Below, piece after piece: positions 1 through 33,851 of a stretch of 33,851 bases of DNA (within the stretch, counting starts at the first letter, position 1; the number at the start of each line of letters is the position of its first letter). Both the position numbers and the translations under genes were made by a program. The notes below the pieces were generated by a model, which had not been told where the DNA came from, made no database searches, and saw only the letters and a list, made by a program, of their open reading frames with translations. Source of the stretch: Clostridia bacterium (GTDB lineage Bacteria > Bacillota > Clostridia > Oscillospirales > CAG-272); assembly GCA_017463485.1 (NCBI GenBank), contig JAFTPD010000018.1:1-33851 (forward strand). The letters run 5' to 3'.

Positions 1-1013
1 ATACTCTCGCTTTGCAGAGCGCGGAACAGATCGGACTTAAGTGCCTCTCGTAGCGAGGTCTCGCGCACGTTGATATCCGAATAGGGAGAGAACGGACAAG
101 GCTCAGCTCCGCCATGGGAGGTGATTTGGAAAAAGCCTCTGCCTGCCGCAAGGCAACCGCCCGTGCTTTTTTCGTCGCACGGAAAGGCAATGAATATCAT
201 CTCGGGATAGGAAGCGCGAAGCTCTGCCATATTCTGCTCCATACGAGCGCGATCCTCATCGGTGGGAGCGAGCGATGCGGTAGTCTCGCTGACGGGAACG
301 TACTCTACATAGAATACGACCTTACAGCCGCGGCTATTCAAATCATCCACAAAATCACGGGAGAATACCTCGCAAAGATTTTCACGGGTGACGGTGACGG
401 ACGCGCCGAAGATCAGATGATTTTTTCTCATCCTCTCCATTCCGTCTATGAGCCTTCCGTACACACCTTCACCGCGGCGGGAGTCGGTCTTTTCCTTGTG
501 ACCTTCGATGCTGAATACGGGAACGAGGTTGCGATGCTTTTCAAACAGAGCAAGATACGTATCGTCTATCATCGTTCCGTTGGTGAAGATCGGGAAAAGA
601 ATTTCGGGAACGCCGCCCGCGGCGCTGATGACGTCACGGCGAAGCATTGGCTCACCGCCTGCAAGAAGAATAAAGCTGATGCCAAGCTCCTTGGCTTCTT
701 TAAATATCTTCAGCCATTCGGCATCACTTAACTGCGCGACAGGGGAGGAATCGCAGCAGGATTGGTTATGACGTGCATAGCAGCCCGCACAGTGAAGATT
801 ACAGCTACTCGTAATGCTTGCGATCAGGAACGGCGGGATATGCTCACCGCCCTCGTTCAGCTCGGCACGACGCTTTGCTGCTTCCTTTATGCTACGGCTG
901 TATTTCATCATAAACGCGCTTTCCTTCGGGTCTTTGAGGGTGGCGCGAAGAATGTTTTTTACAAGATTTTCAACCCCGTTTGAAAGGTATTTTGCAAGAT
1001 CAAAATTTTCCAA
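1..1013 (-). CDS. Radical SAM protein, C-terminus beyond window
   Basis: The reverse strand reads openly from a TTG at 1013 to the left edge with no stop (about 337 residues visible). The translation carries the radical SAM cluster motif CNLHCAGCYA (CX3CX2C, which binds the 4Fe-4S cluster that cleaves S-adenosylmethionine), then LLAGGEP, the usual SAM-contacting glycine motif. Later it has GGCLAAGRGFF and GGAEPCPFSPYSD, which suggests a C-terminal SPASM-like cysteine region continuing outside the window. The TTG start follows GGAGGAG by about 9 nt, and the N-terminus MENFDLAKYLSNGVENLV fits a widespread clostridial radical SAM family of unknown substrate. It has its own promoter and is divergent from the HxlR gene. 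The family call is firm; the substrate is unknown. Confidence 0.88.
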   Translation of the reverse strand, partial: MENFDLAKYLSNGVENLVKNILRATLKDPKESAFMMKYSRSIKEAAKRRAELNEGGEHIPPFLIASITSSCNLHCAGCYARHNQSCCDSSPVAQLSDAEWLKIFKEAKELGISFILLAGGEPMLRRDVISAAGGVPEILFPIFTNGTMIDDTYLALFEKHRNLVPVFSIEGHKEKTDSRRGEGVYGRLIDGMERMRKNHLIFGASVTVTRENLCEVFSRDFVDDLNSRGCKVVFYVEYVPVSETTASLAPTDEDRARMEQNMAELRASYPEMIFIAFPCDEKSTGGCLAAGRGFFQITSHGGAEPCPFSPYSDINVRETSLREALKSDLFRALQSES

Positions 1014-1073
1014 AACAAAAAACTCCTCCTAAATCACATTTTGCTCTTTACTTTACATTTGTTATCTGCTATA

Positions 1074-1102
1074 ATTATACTATCAATAGGCGGATGTGTC
1101 AA
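1074..1102 (-). promoter_or_regulatory. Sigma-A promoter for the radical SAM gene
   Basis: On the reverse strand TTGACA (1102-1097) and TATAAT (1079-1074) are separated by exactly 17 bp, about 60 nt upstream of the TTG start. Confidence 0.75.
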
Positions 1103-1124
1103 TTACGCAATTTATTGTGAGTAA
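1103..1124. promoter_or_regulatory. Imperfect inverted repeat, possible HxlR operator
   Basis: TTAC-gCAA-ttta-TTG-tga-GTAA forms an imperfect dyad directly beside the -35 box of the divergent radical SAM promoter and 36 bp before the HxlR start. HxlR regulators commonly bind dyads in the intergenic region with a divergent gene. Assigning this dyad to HxlR is inference. Confidence 0.3.
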
Positions 1125-1159
1125 GTAAGAAAAATGTTAGTTAAATGGAGGAATTACGT

Positions 1160-1483
1160 ATGTCTCATAGCCATAACTGTCCTTGTACCGAAGCGTGTCC
1201 GCTTCAGCGCGCGATGGAGATGATCGGAGGTAAGTGGAAGCTTGCGATCTTATGCTCTCTCAGTGTAGACGGAACGGTTCGTTATAACGAACTTTTGCGC
1301 AAGGTCAAGGGAATTTCAAATACGATGCTCGCGAGATCCTTACAGGAGCTTGAGAGCGACGGACTTGTTCGCCGTTCGGAATATTTGGAGGTTCCGATTC
1401 GTGTGGAATATGAGCCCACAGATAAAGCAAAGGAGCTTGCTCCCATTCTTGTTCAGCTTGCACAGTGGGCAGCGAAGCAATAG
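1160..1483 (+). CDS. HxlR-family winged-helix transcriptional regulator
   Basis: This 107-residue protein has the complete HxlR signature: N-terminal cysteines (NCPCTEACPLQRAM), then IGGKWKLAILCSL, FNELLRKV-like YNELLRKVKGISNTMLARSLQELESDGLV and a wing ending YEPTDKAKEL. HxlR proteins are small DNA-binding dimers; several sense electrophiles or redox state through the N-terminal cysteine. I chose the ATG at 1160 because an in-frame ATG at 1145 overlaps the GGAGG (1147-1151) that must serve as the ribosome-binding site. The CrtC/AttH-like gene begins 38 bp downstream on the same strand, so the regulator probably controls it or is co-transcribed with it. Confidence 0.92.
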   Translation: MSHSHNCPCTEACPLQRAMEMIGGKWKLAILCSLSVDGTVRYNELLRKVKGISNTMLARSLQELESDGLVRRSEYLEVPIRVEYEPTDKAKELAPILVQLAQWAAKQ

Positions 1484-1521
1484 GAAAAACGGTAAAGAAA
1501 AATTTATGATGGAGGCTAACA

Positions 1522-2646
1522 ATGAGTAAGATTTTGAAATCAATTCATCCCGACGATGATATGCATTATGAAAAAATGGGACTTACCCGAAATAAGATCG
1601 AACCTTGGGAGGACGGTATGCGTACCGACGGAAGCCGCGGTACCTACGAATGGTGGTACTTTGATTCAAGCTTCGTCGACGGTACCAAGCTCGTTTTGCA
1701 GTACTATTCTAAGTCACCCATTCAGGTGAGCGGCAAAATAAAGCCAATCGTTACGGCAGAGCTGACCCTGCCGGATGGACGCGAATATTTCGAGCAGATA
1801 GAAGCGTCGCTACGTGACAGTCACTATGCAAAGACACAGTGTGACGTGAAGATCGGGGACAGCTATATCTGCGGCGACCTTGAGCATTACAATCTCGTTT
1901 TCAAAGGAGAAAAAATTCAGGCAACGGTATCTCTTACCAACACCGTACCTGCATGGCGCAGTCAGTGCGGCCCAATTCTCTTTGGCGACAGCGAAGAATA
2001 TTACTTCAATTGGCTGCCTGCAACGCCTGAGGGCGACGTTACTGCCGACGTAACTTATCCCGATGGGCAGCTTCACCTTGTTGGTAGCGGATATCACGAT
2101 CACAACTGGGGCAATGTCTCCATGTTAAAGCTTATGCATCATTGGTATTGGGGCAGAGCGAAAATTGGAGATTACAAGGTCATTTCCTCGTGGATCACCG
2201 CAGAGAAAAAGTACGGTTACAAGGAGTTTGACGTATTTATGATCGCTAAGAACGGTGAAATTCTCGGAGATAACTCTAATCATACCCTGAAATTTTTGCC
2301 AAGCGACGAATACATTGATGAACACACAGGCAAGCCAGTATACAACACGGTTGCATACGAATACGAAACACCTGCCGGTGAATACTACCGCATTACCTAC
2401 AAGCGCACGGGTGACATCGCCAAAATAAATTTCATTGACCGACTTCTCGGCCCCATGAAATATCTTGCGAAGGTCATCGGCTTTGAAGGCTCATACCTGC
2501 GCTTTCAGGGAATCGCAACGATTGAACGTATAGAGTGCGGTCAGGTGGTAGAAACCGCAACCGAAGACTCTGCCGTTTGGGAGCTGATGTATTTCGGAAA
2601 AGCCGCAGCCGACAAAGAAAACAAGGAAAAGCAGACAGGGGCTTGA
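1522..2646 (+). CDS. Lipocalin-like CrtC/AttH-family protein
   Basis: The 374-residue product has the hallmark TYEWWYFDSSF (residues 41-51) and a second conserved block GYHDHNWGN (190-198), which define the double lipocalin-like fold shared by hydroxyneurosporene synthase (CrtC) and AttH proteins. Carotenoid-pathway members hydrate carotenoids; clostridial homologues are of unknown function and no carotenoid gene lies nearby, so a role on some hydrophobic small molecule is only inference. There is no signal peptide. GGAGG at 1511-1515 supports the ATG at 1522. It follows the HxlR gene by 38 bp and probably forms a two-gene unit with it. Confidence 0.75.
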   Translation: MSKILKSIHPDDDMHYEKMGLTRNKIEPWEDGMRTDGSRGTYEWWYFDSSFVDGTKLVLQYYSKSPIQVSGKIKPIVTAELTLPDGREYFEQIEASLRDSHYAKTQCDVKIGDSYICGDLEHYNLVFKGEKIQATVSLTNTVPAWRSQCGPILFGDSEEYYFNWLPATPEGDVTADVTYPDGQLHLVGSGYHDHNWGNVSMLKLMHHWYWGRAKIGDYKVISSWITAEKKYGYKEFDVFMIAKNGEILGDNSNHTLKFLPSDEYIDEHTGKPVYNTVAYEYETPAGEYYRITYKRTGDIAKINFIDRLLGPMKYLAKVIGFEGSYLRFQGIATIERIECGQVVETATEDSAVWELMYFGKAAADKENKEKQTGA

Positions 2647-32601: not shown

Positions 32602-32651
32602 CACCTCATCCGTCACGGCTTCGCCGCGCCACCTTCTCCCACTGGAGAAGG
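32602..32651 (+). repeat. Half-copy of the CACCTCATCC palindromic element
   Basis: Begins CACCTCATCC and ends in CTTCTCCCACTGGAGAAGG, matching the left half of the complete element at 24558-24641. Confidence 0.75.
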
Positions 32652-32801
32652 CTTAATATCCTAAAAGGTATATGCGGAAGCCCTCCTCTGGGAGGAGGGG
32701 ATGCGACGCTTTAGCGGCGCGGGGAGGAGCCTGCGTGCCAAAAAGATTTTATTCTTTTTTCGTTACGCGTTCTCCCTCAGTCTTTTGCTTCGCAAAATCC
32801 A

Positions 32802-32820
32802 GCTCCCTCCCGGAGGGAGC
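32802..32820. repeat. Short GC-rich palindrome
   Basis: GCTCCCTCC-c-GGAGGGAGC is a perfect 9 bp dyad with a single central base, within the repeat-rich tract and unlinked to any gene. Confidence 0.6.
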
Positions 32821-32923
32821 CTTTCACAAAACATATCCTATCTCTATCCCTTGTTTGCTTTTTTTCATCGGTTAACCTCTTTTGAACCACGCCACTATGG
32901 CGGGGTTTTCGTTTTACAAAAAT

Positions 32924-33113
32924 CACCTCATCCACCGCTACGCGGTCCCCCTTCTCCCACTGGAGAAGGCTCAATCAAAAAAACTTTTCGTTGCCTTATA
33001 ACCGTTAGTTCTCAAGCGCCTTTGGGTTGTGTATTAAGGAAAAAGGTTCTATAAAAAGCCTTCTCCAGTGGGAGAAGGGGGACCATTCGCTGTAGCGAAT
33101 GGTGGATGAGGTG
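32924..33113. repeat. Split palindromic element bounded by CACCTCATCC and GGATGAGGTG
   Basis: A left half (32924-32970) and a right half (33059-33113) face each other with about 90 bp of unrelated sequence between them, as if the 84 bp palindrome had received an insertion at its central CTTCTCC/GGAGAAG region. The right half also holds CCATTCGC/GCGAATGG. Confidence 0.7.
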
Positions 33114-33142
33114 TCAAAATATCACATTTTTTTATTTTCCTG

Positions 33143-33171
33143 TTTACTTTTGTAAAAATATGTGATATAAT
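33143..33171 (+). promoter_or_regulatory. Promoter of RNA-SLOG cassette 1
   Basis: TTTACT (33143-33148), exactly 17 bp, TATAAT (33166-33171). The 37 nt from 33135 to 33171 are identical to those in cassette 2, offset 394. Confidence 0.82.
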
Positions 33172-33177
33172 AACTAT

Positions 33178-33386
33178 GCTCAACAAATCAAATAATCAAA
33201 AGGTGTAGTTTCTTACAAGGGATAATTGTACCTTTTTTCCCATATCCTAATTTTTGAATTTGGCAAAAATGCAAATTCCGTAAATTAGGATGTAGAAACT
33301 ATTCCCGTTCTGATTTGATTTGTTGAGCGACAAATCGGAGTTTGCGTTTTTCGGGCGGCAACTTCGGTTGTCGCTCTTTTTATTTT
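33178..33386 (+). ncRNA. Structured leader/sRNA with variable stems, cassette 1
   Basis: The expected start site falls at the outer stem. P1: 33178-33193 with 33313-33328 (16 bp, perfect). P2: TAGTTTCT/AGAAACTA (33206-33213 with 33294-33301). P3: ATCCTAATTT/AAATTAGGAT (33244-33253 with 33282-33291). P4: GAATTT/AAATTC (33256-33261 with 33273-33278) around GGCAAAAATGC. The 3' end is a terminator: GCGGCAAC-TTCG-GTTGTCGC (33355-33374) plus a T-tract. A rival pairing AGCGACAA (33326-33333) with TTGTCGCT (33368-33375) would disrupt the terminator. No known riboswitch core is recognised. Confidence 0.7.
33355..33386 (+). terminator. UUCG-capped terminator, cassette 1
   Basis: An 8 bp stem with one G-T pair and a TTCG loop is followed by TCTTTTTATTTT, 21 nt before the SLOG-like ATG. 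It lies inside the cassette, so it would stop transcription before the gene unless read through. Confidence 0.82.
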
Positions 33387-33406
33387 ACCAATGGAGGAAT
33401 TTCGTT

Positions 33407-33493
33407 ATGACAATTACATTCTGCGGACACGGAGATTATGTGAGAAACGCCGAGGACGAACAAAAAGTTCTTGAAATACTTGAACGGGGGTAA
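33407..33493 (+). pseudogene. Truncated SLOG-like ORF, 28 codons
   Basis: An ATG with GGAGG 9 nt upstream starts MTITFCGHGDYVRNAEDEQK and stops at TAA after EILERG. The start resembles the N-terminus of clostridial SLOG (Rossmann-like nucleotide-ligand-sensing) proteins, normally well over 100 residues. The rest is missing, so this is a broken gene or a short peptide kept for regulation. Its first 46 nt are identical to the start of the next copy. Confidence 0.55.
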
Positions 33494-33536
33494 TATCTAA
33501 TAAATCACCGACACAAAAAATTTTCCCGTTTTCCTG

Positions 33537-33565
33537 TTTACTTTTGTAAAAATATGTGATATAAT
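33537..33565 (+). promoter_or_regulatory. Promoter of RNA-SLOG cassette 2
   Basis: TTTACT (33537-33542), 17 bp, TATAAT (33560-33565); sequence identical to cassette 1 over 37 nt. Confidence 0.82.
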
Positions 33566-33570
33566 GAAAA

Positions 33571-33785
33571 CGCCAAACAAATTTAATAGTAAAATCAATG
33601 GTATTATTTTCCGTATGGAATAGCTGTACCTTTTTTTAGGCATAATCCCCCTATAAATTTGGCAAAAGCGCAAATTTCCCGGGGTGATTATGGTAGTAAT
33701 ACCTTCATTCTATTAAATTTGTTTGGCGACAAATCGGAGTTTGCGTTTTTCGGGCGGCAACTTCGGTTGTCGCTCTTTTTATTTT
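33571..33785 (+). ncRNA. Structured leader/sRNA with variable stems, cassette 2
   Basis: P1: 33571-33589 with 33710-33728 (19 bp, perfect). P2: GGTATTA/TAATACC (33600-33606 with 33697-33703). P3: CATAATC/GATTATG (33641-33647 with 33686-33692), continued by C-G pairs after one mismatch. P4: AAATTT/AAATTT (33655-33660 with 33672-33677) around GGCAAAAGCGC. Sequence differs from cassette 1 in all of these stems while pairing is kept; GTACCTTTTTT and AATTTGGCAAAA are shared. The terminator is at 33754-33773 plus T-tract, with the competing GCGACAA/TTGTCGC pairing. Confidence 0.7.
33754..33785 (+). terminator. UUCG-capped terminator, cassette 2
   Basis: GCGGCAAC (33754-33761), TTCG, GTTGTCGC (33766-33773) and a T-tract; identical to cassette 1. 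Confidence 0.82.
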
Positions 33786-33805
33786 ACCAATGGAGGAATT
33801 TCGTT

Positions 33806-33851
33806 ATGACAATTACATTCTGCGGACACGGAGATTATGTGAGAAACGCCG
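33806..33851 (+). CDS. SLOG-like protein, only the N-terminus in window
   Basis: The frame starts MTITFCGHGDYVRNA and runs off the right edge after 15 codons, so it may be full length, truncated like copy 1, or part of a longer array. The TFCGH start resembles SLOG/DUF1273-type proteins, which are proposed to bind nucleotide-derived ligands. With so few residues the family call is tentative. GGAGG precedes the ATG, itself downstream of an intrinsic terminator. Confidence 0.5.
   Translation, partial: MTITFCGHGDYVRNA

Follow-up and report, generated by a model that had tools for sequence, protein, structure and literature searches.

Tandem RNA units at a contig end

The stretch analysed here (33,851 nt, hereafter the window) makes up contig C9 of a genome assembled into 21 contigs totalling 1.74 Mb, and it carries two RNA units at its downstream end (Table 1). 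The usual layout of a unit is a promoter, a core closed by the helix P1, a linker, an intrinsic terminator, a ribosome site and a gene. A sequence-only reading of the window had reported that two blocks are repeated identically around cores that differ yet fold equally. Both repeats are exact (33135-33171 equals 33529-33565, and 33327-33452 equals 33726-33851), and P1 is a perfect inverted repeat in each unit. Upstream of the array, positions 32629-33080 hold palindromic, MITE-like repeats (CCTTCTCCCACTGGAGAAGG) in both orientations, which are also found near the copy at locus L009.

Table 1. Elements of the two RNA units, in window coordinates
Feature	Position	Strand	Remarks
Unit 1 promoter	33143..33171	+	-35-like TTTACT 33143-33148, -10 TATAAT 33166-33171, spacing 17 nt; basis: sequence
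Unit 1 P1 5' strand	33178..33193	+	Perfect 16 bp inverted repeat; covariation
Unit 1 P4 loop and 3' arm, upstream strand of pseudoknot	33265..33279	+	Complementary to 33337-33351
Unit 1 P1 3' strand	33313..33328	+	Perfect 16 bp inverted repeat; covariation
Unit 1 linker, upstream strand of antiterminator	33327..33340	+	GCGACAAATCGGAG, one bulged A; complementary to 33362-33374
Unit 1 linker, downstream strand of pseudoknot	33337..33351	+	GGAGTTTGCGTTTTT; GGAG 33337-33340 common with antiterminator
Unit 1 intrinsic terminator, hairpin (33355-33374) and T run	33355..33381	+	33362-33374 doubles as downstream strand of antiterminator
Truncated SLOG-like start after unit 1	33407..33493	+	28 codons
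Unit 2 promoter	33537..33565	+	-35-like 33537-33542, -10 33560-33565; basis: sequence
Unit 2 P1 5' strand	33571..33589	+	Perfect 19 bp inverted repeat
Unit 2 P4 loop and 3' arm, upstream strand of pseudoknot	33664..33679	+	One bulged T
Unit 2 P1 3' strand	33710..33728	+	Perfect 19 bp inverted repeat
Unit 2 linker	33726..33750	+	Antiterminator strand 33726-33739, pseudoknot strand 33736-33750
Unit 2 terminator, hairpin (33754-33773) and T run	33754..33780	+	33761-33773 doubles as antiterminator strand
SLOG-like start after unit 2, cut by contig end	33806..33851	+	Same block on contig C11 runs to a 28-codon fragment

The window ends exactly where the 126-nt block ends, and the same block opens contig C11 of this genome and recurs there, as would be seen if a repeat had interrupted the assembly. 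The first reading had proposed looking for more units beyond position 33851; the contig stops inside the array, and contig C11 carries three more RNA units, followed by a complete SLOG-like gene of 151 residues. The array would therefore comprise at least five units before an intact SLOG-like gene if the two contigs are joined as the repeat suggests, and additional units could lie between them. Behind each of the first four units the gene start stops after 27-28 codons. Mean identity among the five units is 0.87 in the 45 nt upstream, 0.67 in the core (0.52 after shuffling the cores of units 1 and 2) and 0.93 in the 130 nt downstream. Thus, flanks that are identical for units 1 and 2 are only similar across all five (0.78-0.96 upstream and 0.86-0.98 downstream). 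The same DNA search found five further RNA copies elsewhere in the genome.

A second, independent array occupies positions 886-1667 (reverse strand) of locus L169, with four promoter-RNA-terminator units and a gene only after the last; identities there are 0.72-0.98 upstream, 0.48-0.81 in the core and 0.63-0.88 downstream. At locus L109 (2782-3215), one unit of each of the two size classes described below, long and short, stand in tandem before a SLOG-like gene.

A structured RNA family of Clostridia

A covariance model (R1) was built from an alignment of ten copies from the window's genome (A1). In that genome it returned 15 matches, of which 14 were kept as copies, ten of them strong (E of 5e-31 or better) and four shorter and weaker (E of 2e-6 to 2e-11); the fifteenth, which lies opposite unit 2 on the reverse strand (E of 3e-4), is an artefact of the long hairpin. 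Counting genomes with a match at E up to 0.001, and including the window's own genome each time, we found the RNA in 27 of 58 relatives, 8 of 12 genomes in the genus, 109 of 345 in the order and 90 of 391 in the class (a draw that includes some genomes of the order); reverse-strand artefacts reach an E of 1.6e-5, so that a few single-match genomes near 1e-4 are doubtful, and the large searches used stricter filters with about six candidates scored per genome, so that genomes and copies can be missed. In a draw of 398 genomes from the phylum, which included at least 14 listed order or class genomes lacking a match, the window's own genome gave the sole match. A pattern scan yielded at least 119 loci, and the named records among the matches listed are Clostridia-type metagenome assemblies, mostly from animal guts; the exceptions among those listed, one Paenibacillus and one Planctomycetales record, had no model match at E 0.001.

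Carriage by phages or plasmids was considered and set aside. One phage-labelled scaffold from human faeces (MT835503.1; locus L233, 337-532) has a member (E of 1.3e-21) before the frame of an EcoRI-type adenine methylase, three viral pattern scans returned 0, 1 (locus L234) and 0 stretches, and a plasmid search found no family member.

The first reading had not recognised the RNA as a named family, and Rfam 15 agrees, with no match at the gathering score. On the window it detected only 4 tRNAs; on the array part (L012 1-1800), searched at E up to 5, all 11 matches fell below gathering; and on twelve further loci, covering both size classes, matches lay only elsewhere in the loci (tRNA, Gut-1, L21 leader). 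Literature searches, mostly with narrow combined terms, did not find the RNA described, and the supplementary candidates of one study could include it (PMC8040213). These results identify a real, widespread structured RNA family that lacks an Rfam entry. A Gut-1 RNA (RF01706; L044 847-921, forward strand) shares a locus with one family member.

For comparative analysis, the starting set of 226 matches (217 distinct) was reduced to 193 by removing 24 that had fewer than 8 of the 9 outer P1 pairs or lacked the T run at the end (cut or broken copies and antisense rows), and then to 192 by removing one antisense row; 161 members remained once near-duplicates were taken out. The family falls into two size classes of about 210 nt (long) and about 160 nt (short), and a cut at 195 nt divides the 161 members into 134 long and 27 short. 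Where a flank or motif was absent, subsets were used (132 long members in a region-pair scan; 132 long and 26 short in the pseudoknot permutation test). A held-out set came from 51 matches in 49 class-level loci, of which 15 seen before or duplicated and one removed for its P1 were discarded, leaving 35. In unit 1 of the window P1 starts 7 nt past the -10 element, and a -10 element matching at 5 or more of 6 positions lies 4-9 nt ahead of the model start in 123 of the 161 members.

The fold is maintained across this variation. In an alignment of 102 family matches (A4; 101 distinct), 95.2% of the 2976 cells in P1, P4 and the terminator form standard pairs, both sides have changed in 26 of 31 pairs, and none of 500 shuffles reaches any of five measures. 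Cells changed on both sides number 370 vs 89.6 in shuffles, and sliding the strands by 1-3 columns lowers pairing to 36-44%. Because A4 was fitted to the structure of the model, these counts favour that structure; tests of own against swapped strands, which are independent of the fitting, gave -20.18 vs -9.69 kcal/mol for P1, -16.76 vs -7.29 kcal/mol for P3 (93 long members with a recognisable P4) and -16.53 vs -11.26 kcal/mol for the terminator. Among the 35 held-out members P1, the terminator and the antiterminator described below each beat 5000 of 5000 permutations, with the -10 element in place in 31 and a gene behind in 30. P1, the terminator and an inner stem (c16-32/c-32:-16) head the best rows of the region-pair scan (120 pairs, 132 long members), followed by a pairing of linker and terminator. 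P1, P3 and the terminator are thus maintained by compensatory change, and the selection on RNA fold that had been proposed from two copies holds in the wider alignment, where the shuffles place it far beyond chance.

Downstream genes and a putative attenuator

A ribosome site with a frame of at least 40 codons follows within 150 nt in 130 of the 155 non-redundant members with enough sequence, compared with 39 of 146 in a control reading outward upstream. The median distance to the gene start is 21.5 nt, and 104 of the 130 lie within 40 nt. These genes are diverse: the 130 proteins match 65 Pfam families at E 0.001, with LRR_5 (13), DZR zinc ribbon (12), DUF6809 (7), AMP-binding (3) and SHOCT (3) leading among the 25 families listed, and many others have lipoprotein-like starts when read by eye. 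A small Cys-rich protein with a CCCDECDY motif, with no Pfam or NCBIfam match, recurs behind the RNA (L050 1284-1481 on the reverse strand, L056, L086, L277 and others); 4 of 11 loci with this protein have the RNA, and divergent forms of it also occur in the class-level set. A role in defence was rejected, as the 130 proteins include 17 PADLOC families with one member each.

The SLOG-like gene of the window had raised the idea of an RNA partner for a SLOG protein, which these data do not support. The window's protein has no Pfam match at E 0.01 and owes its label to weak YpsA matches of its relatives; in the order, 64 of 197 genomes have SLOG relatives. The YpsA SLOG family accounts for 2 of the 130 downstream proteins at E 0.001 (weaker matches exist besides), and the RNA was found at 2 of 30 fetched SLOG loci, one of them the window's own; with 28 loci lacking it and such diverse genes downstream, a dedicated SLOG partner RNA was discarded. 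Of the ideas in the first reading, a selected RNA fold, an RNA outside Rfam and a leader of the sensing kind find support, and a partner of the SLOG protein does not. The same counts weigh against a protein-RNA pair like the type III toxin-antitoxin systems, in which the RNA would bind the protein of the downstream gene (SLOG in the window) and the terminator would set their ratio. In ToxIN, as outlined in PMC8860590, the order is promoter, pseudoknotted RNA, terminator and gene, and the order of parts here is the same; however, type III systems have one endoribonuclease toxin family, whereas 65 Pfam families follow this RNA rather than a single partner, and an antiterminator is present. As to the tandem antitoxin repeats that type III systems have in a single transcript, most loci here have single units, and each array unit has its own promoter and terminator. 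We regard such a pair as very improbable.

Behind P1, the linker (GGAGUUUGCGUUUUU) is complementary to the loop and 3' arm of P4, with which it would form a pseudoknot. In the long class 98.9% of 1308 cells are paired, compared with 30-58% when slid; covariation is slight because both strands are conserved, the linker being nearly invariant, and permuting partners made no difference (own 31.1 vs others 31.2; 60/132 long members). In the short class the pseudoknot changes from member to member and covaries (own 26.3, against 21.0 when permuted and 23.8 in the best of 2000 permutations; n = 26), in a test that favours the own value since the apical strand was picked for best fit to its own linker. 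All 35 held-out members have a linker-core duplex of -12 kcal/mol or better, a threshold of our own choosing applied without a permutation control. Computation establishes the complementarity of the pseudoknot strands, and in the short class their covariation as well.

The first 12 bases of the linker can instead pair with the 3' arm of the terminator (z of 6.3, among the best rows of the 120 scanned). Over the 161 members this antiterminator has a mean energy of -12.46 kcal/mol with the own partner, -10.81 when permuted (-11.27 in the best of 2000 permutations) and -6.52 with shuffled linkers, and folding linker plus terminator gives it as the minimum-energy structure for 115 of 161 members and for 32 of 35 held out. 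Standard pairs fill 87.2% of 1084 cells and none of 500 shuffles reaches any of five measures, although one of the 11 drawn pairs mostly fails (columns 281-343, unpaired in 73 of 90). A switch between the P1 3' strand and the terminator 3' arm was also tried; it is weak (-9.74 vs -8.82; z of 1.5), and the linker pairing is preferred. The pseudoknot and the antiterminator have just four bases, GGAG, in common, and trimmed forms of about 11 bp each could therefore coexist.

The complementarity between linker and terminator would have no use in a plain small RNA, and this, together with the frequency of genes with a ribosome site close behind, argues against a trans-acting RNA, about 200 nt long and equipped with a promoter and a terminator of its own, whose gene would be reached by read-through and whose arrays would serve dosage or variety. 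That interpretation accounts for the well-formed terminator and for complete units that lack a gene inside arrays (three of four in L169, the first in L109); 25 of the 155 members have no gene start by our criterion, and among them are inner array units, which fit a leader model poorly. Overall, we judge a trans-acting small RNA unlikely.

We consider it probable, on evidence that is computational throughout, that each unit is instead a cis-acting, riboswitch-like transcription attenuator. The family places a structured leader with an intrinsic terminator between promoter and gene, together with an alternative antiterminator pairing indicated by complementarity and covariation, and the sensing leader envisaged in the first reading is the type of element that promoter, fold, terminator, antiterminator and held-out results support, likewise by computation. 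Transcription would start at P1 or immediately upstream of it, and the core (P1, P2, P3 and P4) would fold first, leaving the linker with two pairing options, the P4 side or the terminator side. Pairing with the P4 loop and 3' arm would occupy GGAG in the pseudoknot, so that the terminator hairpin forms and transcription stops (OFF); pairing with the terminator loop and 3' arm would give the antiterminator and let the polymerase continue into the gene, usually 10-40 nt on (ON). The core would act as the sensor of a metabolite, an ion, a protein or another RNA, with the signal shifting the balance toward OFF or ON, and we infer competition between the two linker pairings in the cell, with an outcome decided by the signal. 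When the pseudoknot is left out, the antiterminator is the predicted state of linker and terminator in most members; however, both strands of the pseudoknot are transcribed ahead of the terminator and form stronger duplexes (linker-core average -21.09 vs -12.46 kcal/mol, the cost of opening P4 excluded), so that either default is possible. No strongly conserved ligand pocket is evident, and a GGGATA element common in the long class (61 of 134 members) occurs in 1 of 27 short ones.

In riboswitches of preQ1 class I type II, a small pseudoknot of the H type serves as the aptamer. The assignment of OFF and ON is taken from topology, by analogy with the transcriptional preQ1 switch of this type in Bacillus subtilis, in which the pseudoknot likewise favours an intrinsic terminator and competes with an antiterminator hairpin, as described in PMC11625349. 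The RNA here differs from that switch: it measures about 160-210 nt, its P1 is long, its pseudoknot reaches past P1 into the linker, Rfam has no match for it, and the genes that follow are very diverse. c-di-GMP switch regulons include many surface proteins, and T-box leaders carry the T-box consensus in their antiterminator. A T-box leader was rejected, since that consensus (searched as a short regular expression) occurs in none of the 161 members and Rfam gave no match. Several leaders in a row before one gene recall the tandem arrangement that is most prominent for T-box and c-di-GMP leaders in Bacillota (PMC12452182); here, in contrast, each unit has its own promoter, and near-identical flanks enclose differing cores without an Rfam match.

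If the attenuator reading is right, these RNAs would form an orphan switch family, present in about one quarter to one third of the sampled class and order genomes and in 14 copies in the window's genome, preceding surface-repeat, lipoprotein-like, zinc-ribbon, biosynthetic and uncharacterised genes of gut bacteria. Its signal, once found, would reveal a common regulon missed by current annotation.

Apparent reassortment between cores and flanks

What is unusual in this family is its arrays and the way its cores are reassorted. Among 37 pairs with cores at least 0.86 identical and downstream sequence to compare, 23 (25 loci in nine groups) are followed by unrelated sequence. In the clearest pair, L086 and L019, core identity is 0.98 compared with 0.58 upstream and 0.55 downstream, and the two are alike from P1 to the end of the linker and different outside. 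The downstream edge of likeness varies, as other pairs include the terminator (L130 and L174, 0.94; L098 and L147, 0.97); averaged edge profiles are noisy and stay above background into the terminator, with a few upstream positions also above. Conversely, 85 pairs that are alike downstream (0.78 or more) have cores from 0.51 to 0.99 identical; they are mostly copies of the small Cys-rich gene, which both RNA classes precede, and a few are array units of the window. Near-identical cores before unrelated genes, and related genes with different cores, point, from sequence comparison, to an apparent shuffling of cores among unrelated genes.

Like cores before unrelated sequence might also come from a mobile DNA element that inserts between promoters and genes and has P1 for its terminal repeats, and in several pairs likeness does start at P1. 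Unlike fixed transposon ends, however, P1 differs between copies through compensatory changes (both sides altered in 8 of 11 outer pairs), promoter, linker and terminator hold set places around the core, and in several pairs likeness continues through the terminator. A mobile element is therefore a highly doubtful explanation, and our preferred guess for the route of reassortment is homologous recombination in the conserved edges combined with selection against broken P1 helices.

The cores had been described as diversified, which is true across copies; fast change in place is not supported. A core 0.97 identical to that of unit 4 stands at the matching position in a sister genome, and the sole non-array pair alike on both sides has a core identity of 0.99. 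The other 12 of the 13 pairs alike on both sides lie within one array or contig, and core replacement at a fully syntenic locus was not found among the 13, so that cassette exchange rests on non-syntenic cases. It is possible, and we put it forward tentatively, that the family represents class-wide exchangeable switches, with cores of one fold moving as cassettes between promoters and terminator-gene modules and arrays collecting different cores between constant flanks. If so, gene regulation could be rewired by swapping the switch, and the reassortment would offer a concrete case for studying how regulatory RNAs pass between genes.

In G009, a sister genome, the RNA terminator is cut in its loop after CTTC at two loci (L020 1690-2420 and L073 1690-2290). 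The same sequence follows the cut in both, with a TnpV gene (Pfam) and a DUF6809-like gene (by eye). A third copy of this TnpV-bearing sequence, at L231 in genome G008, also stands after CTTC, with no RNA.
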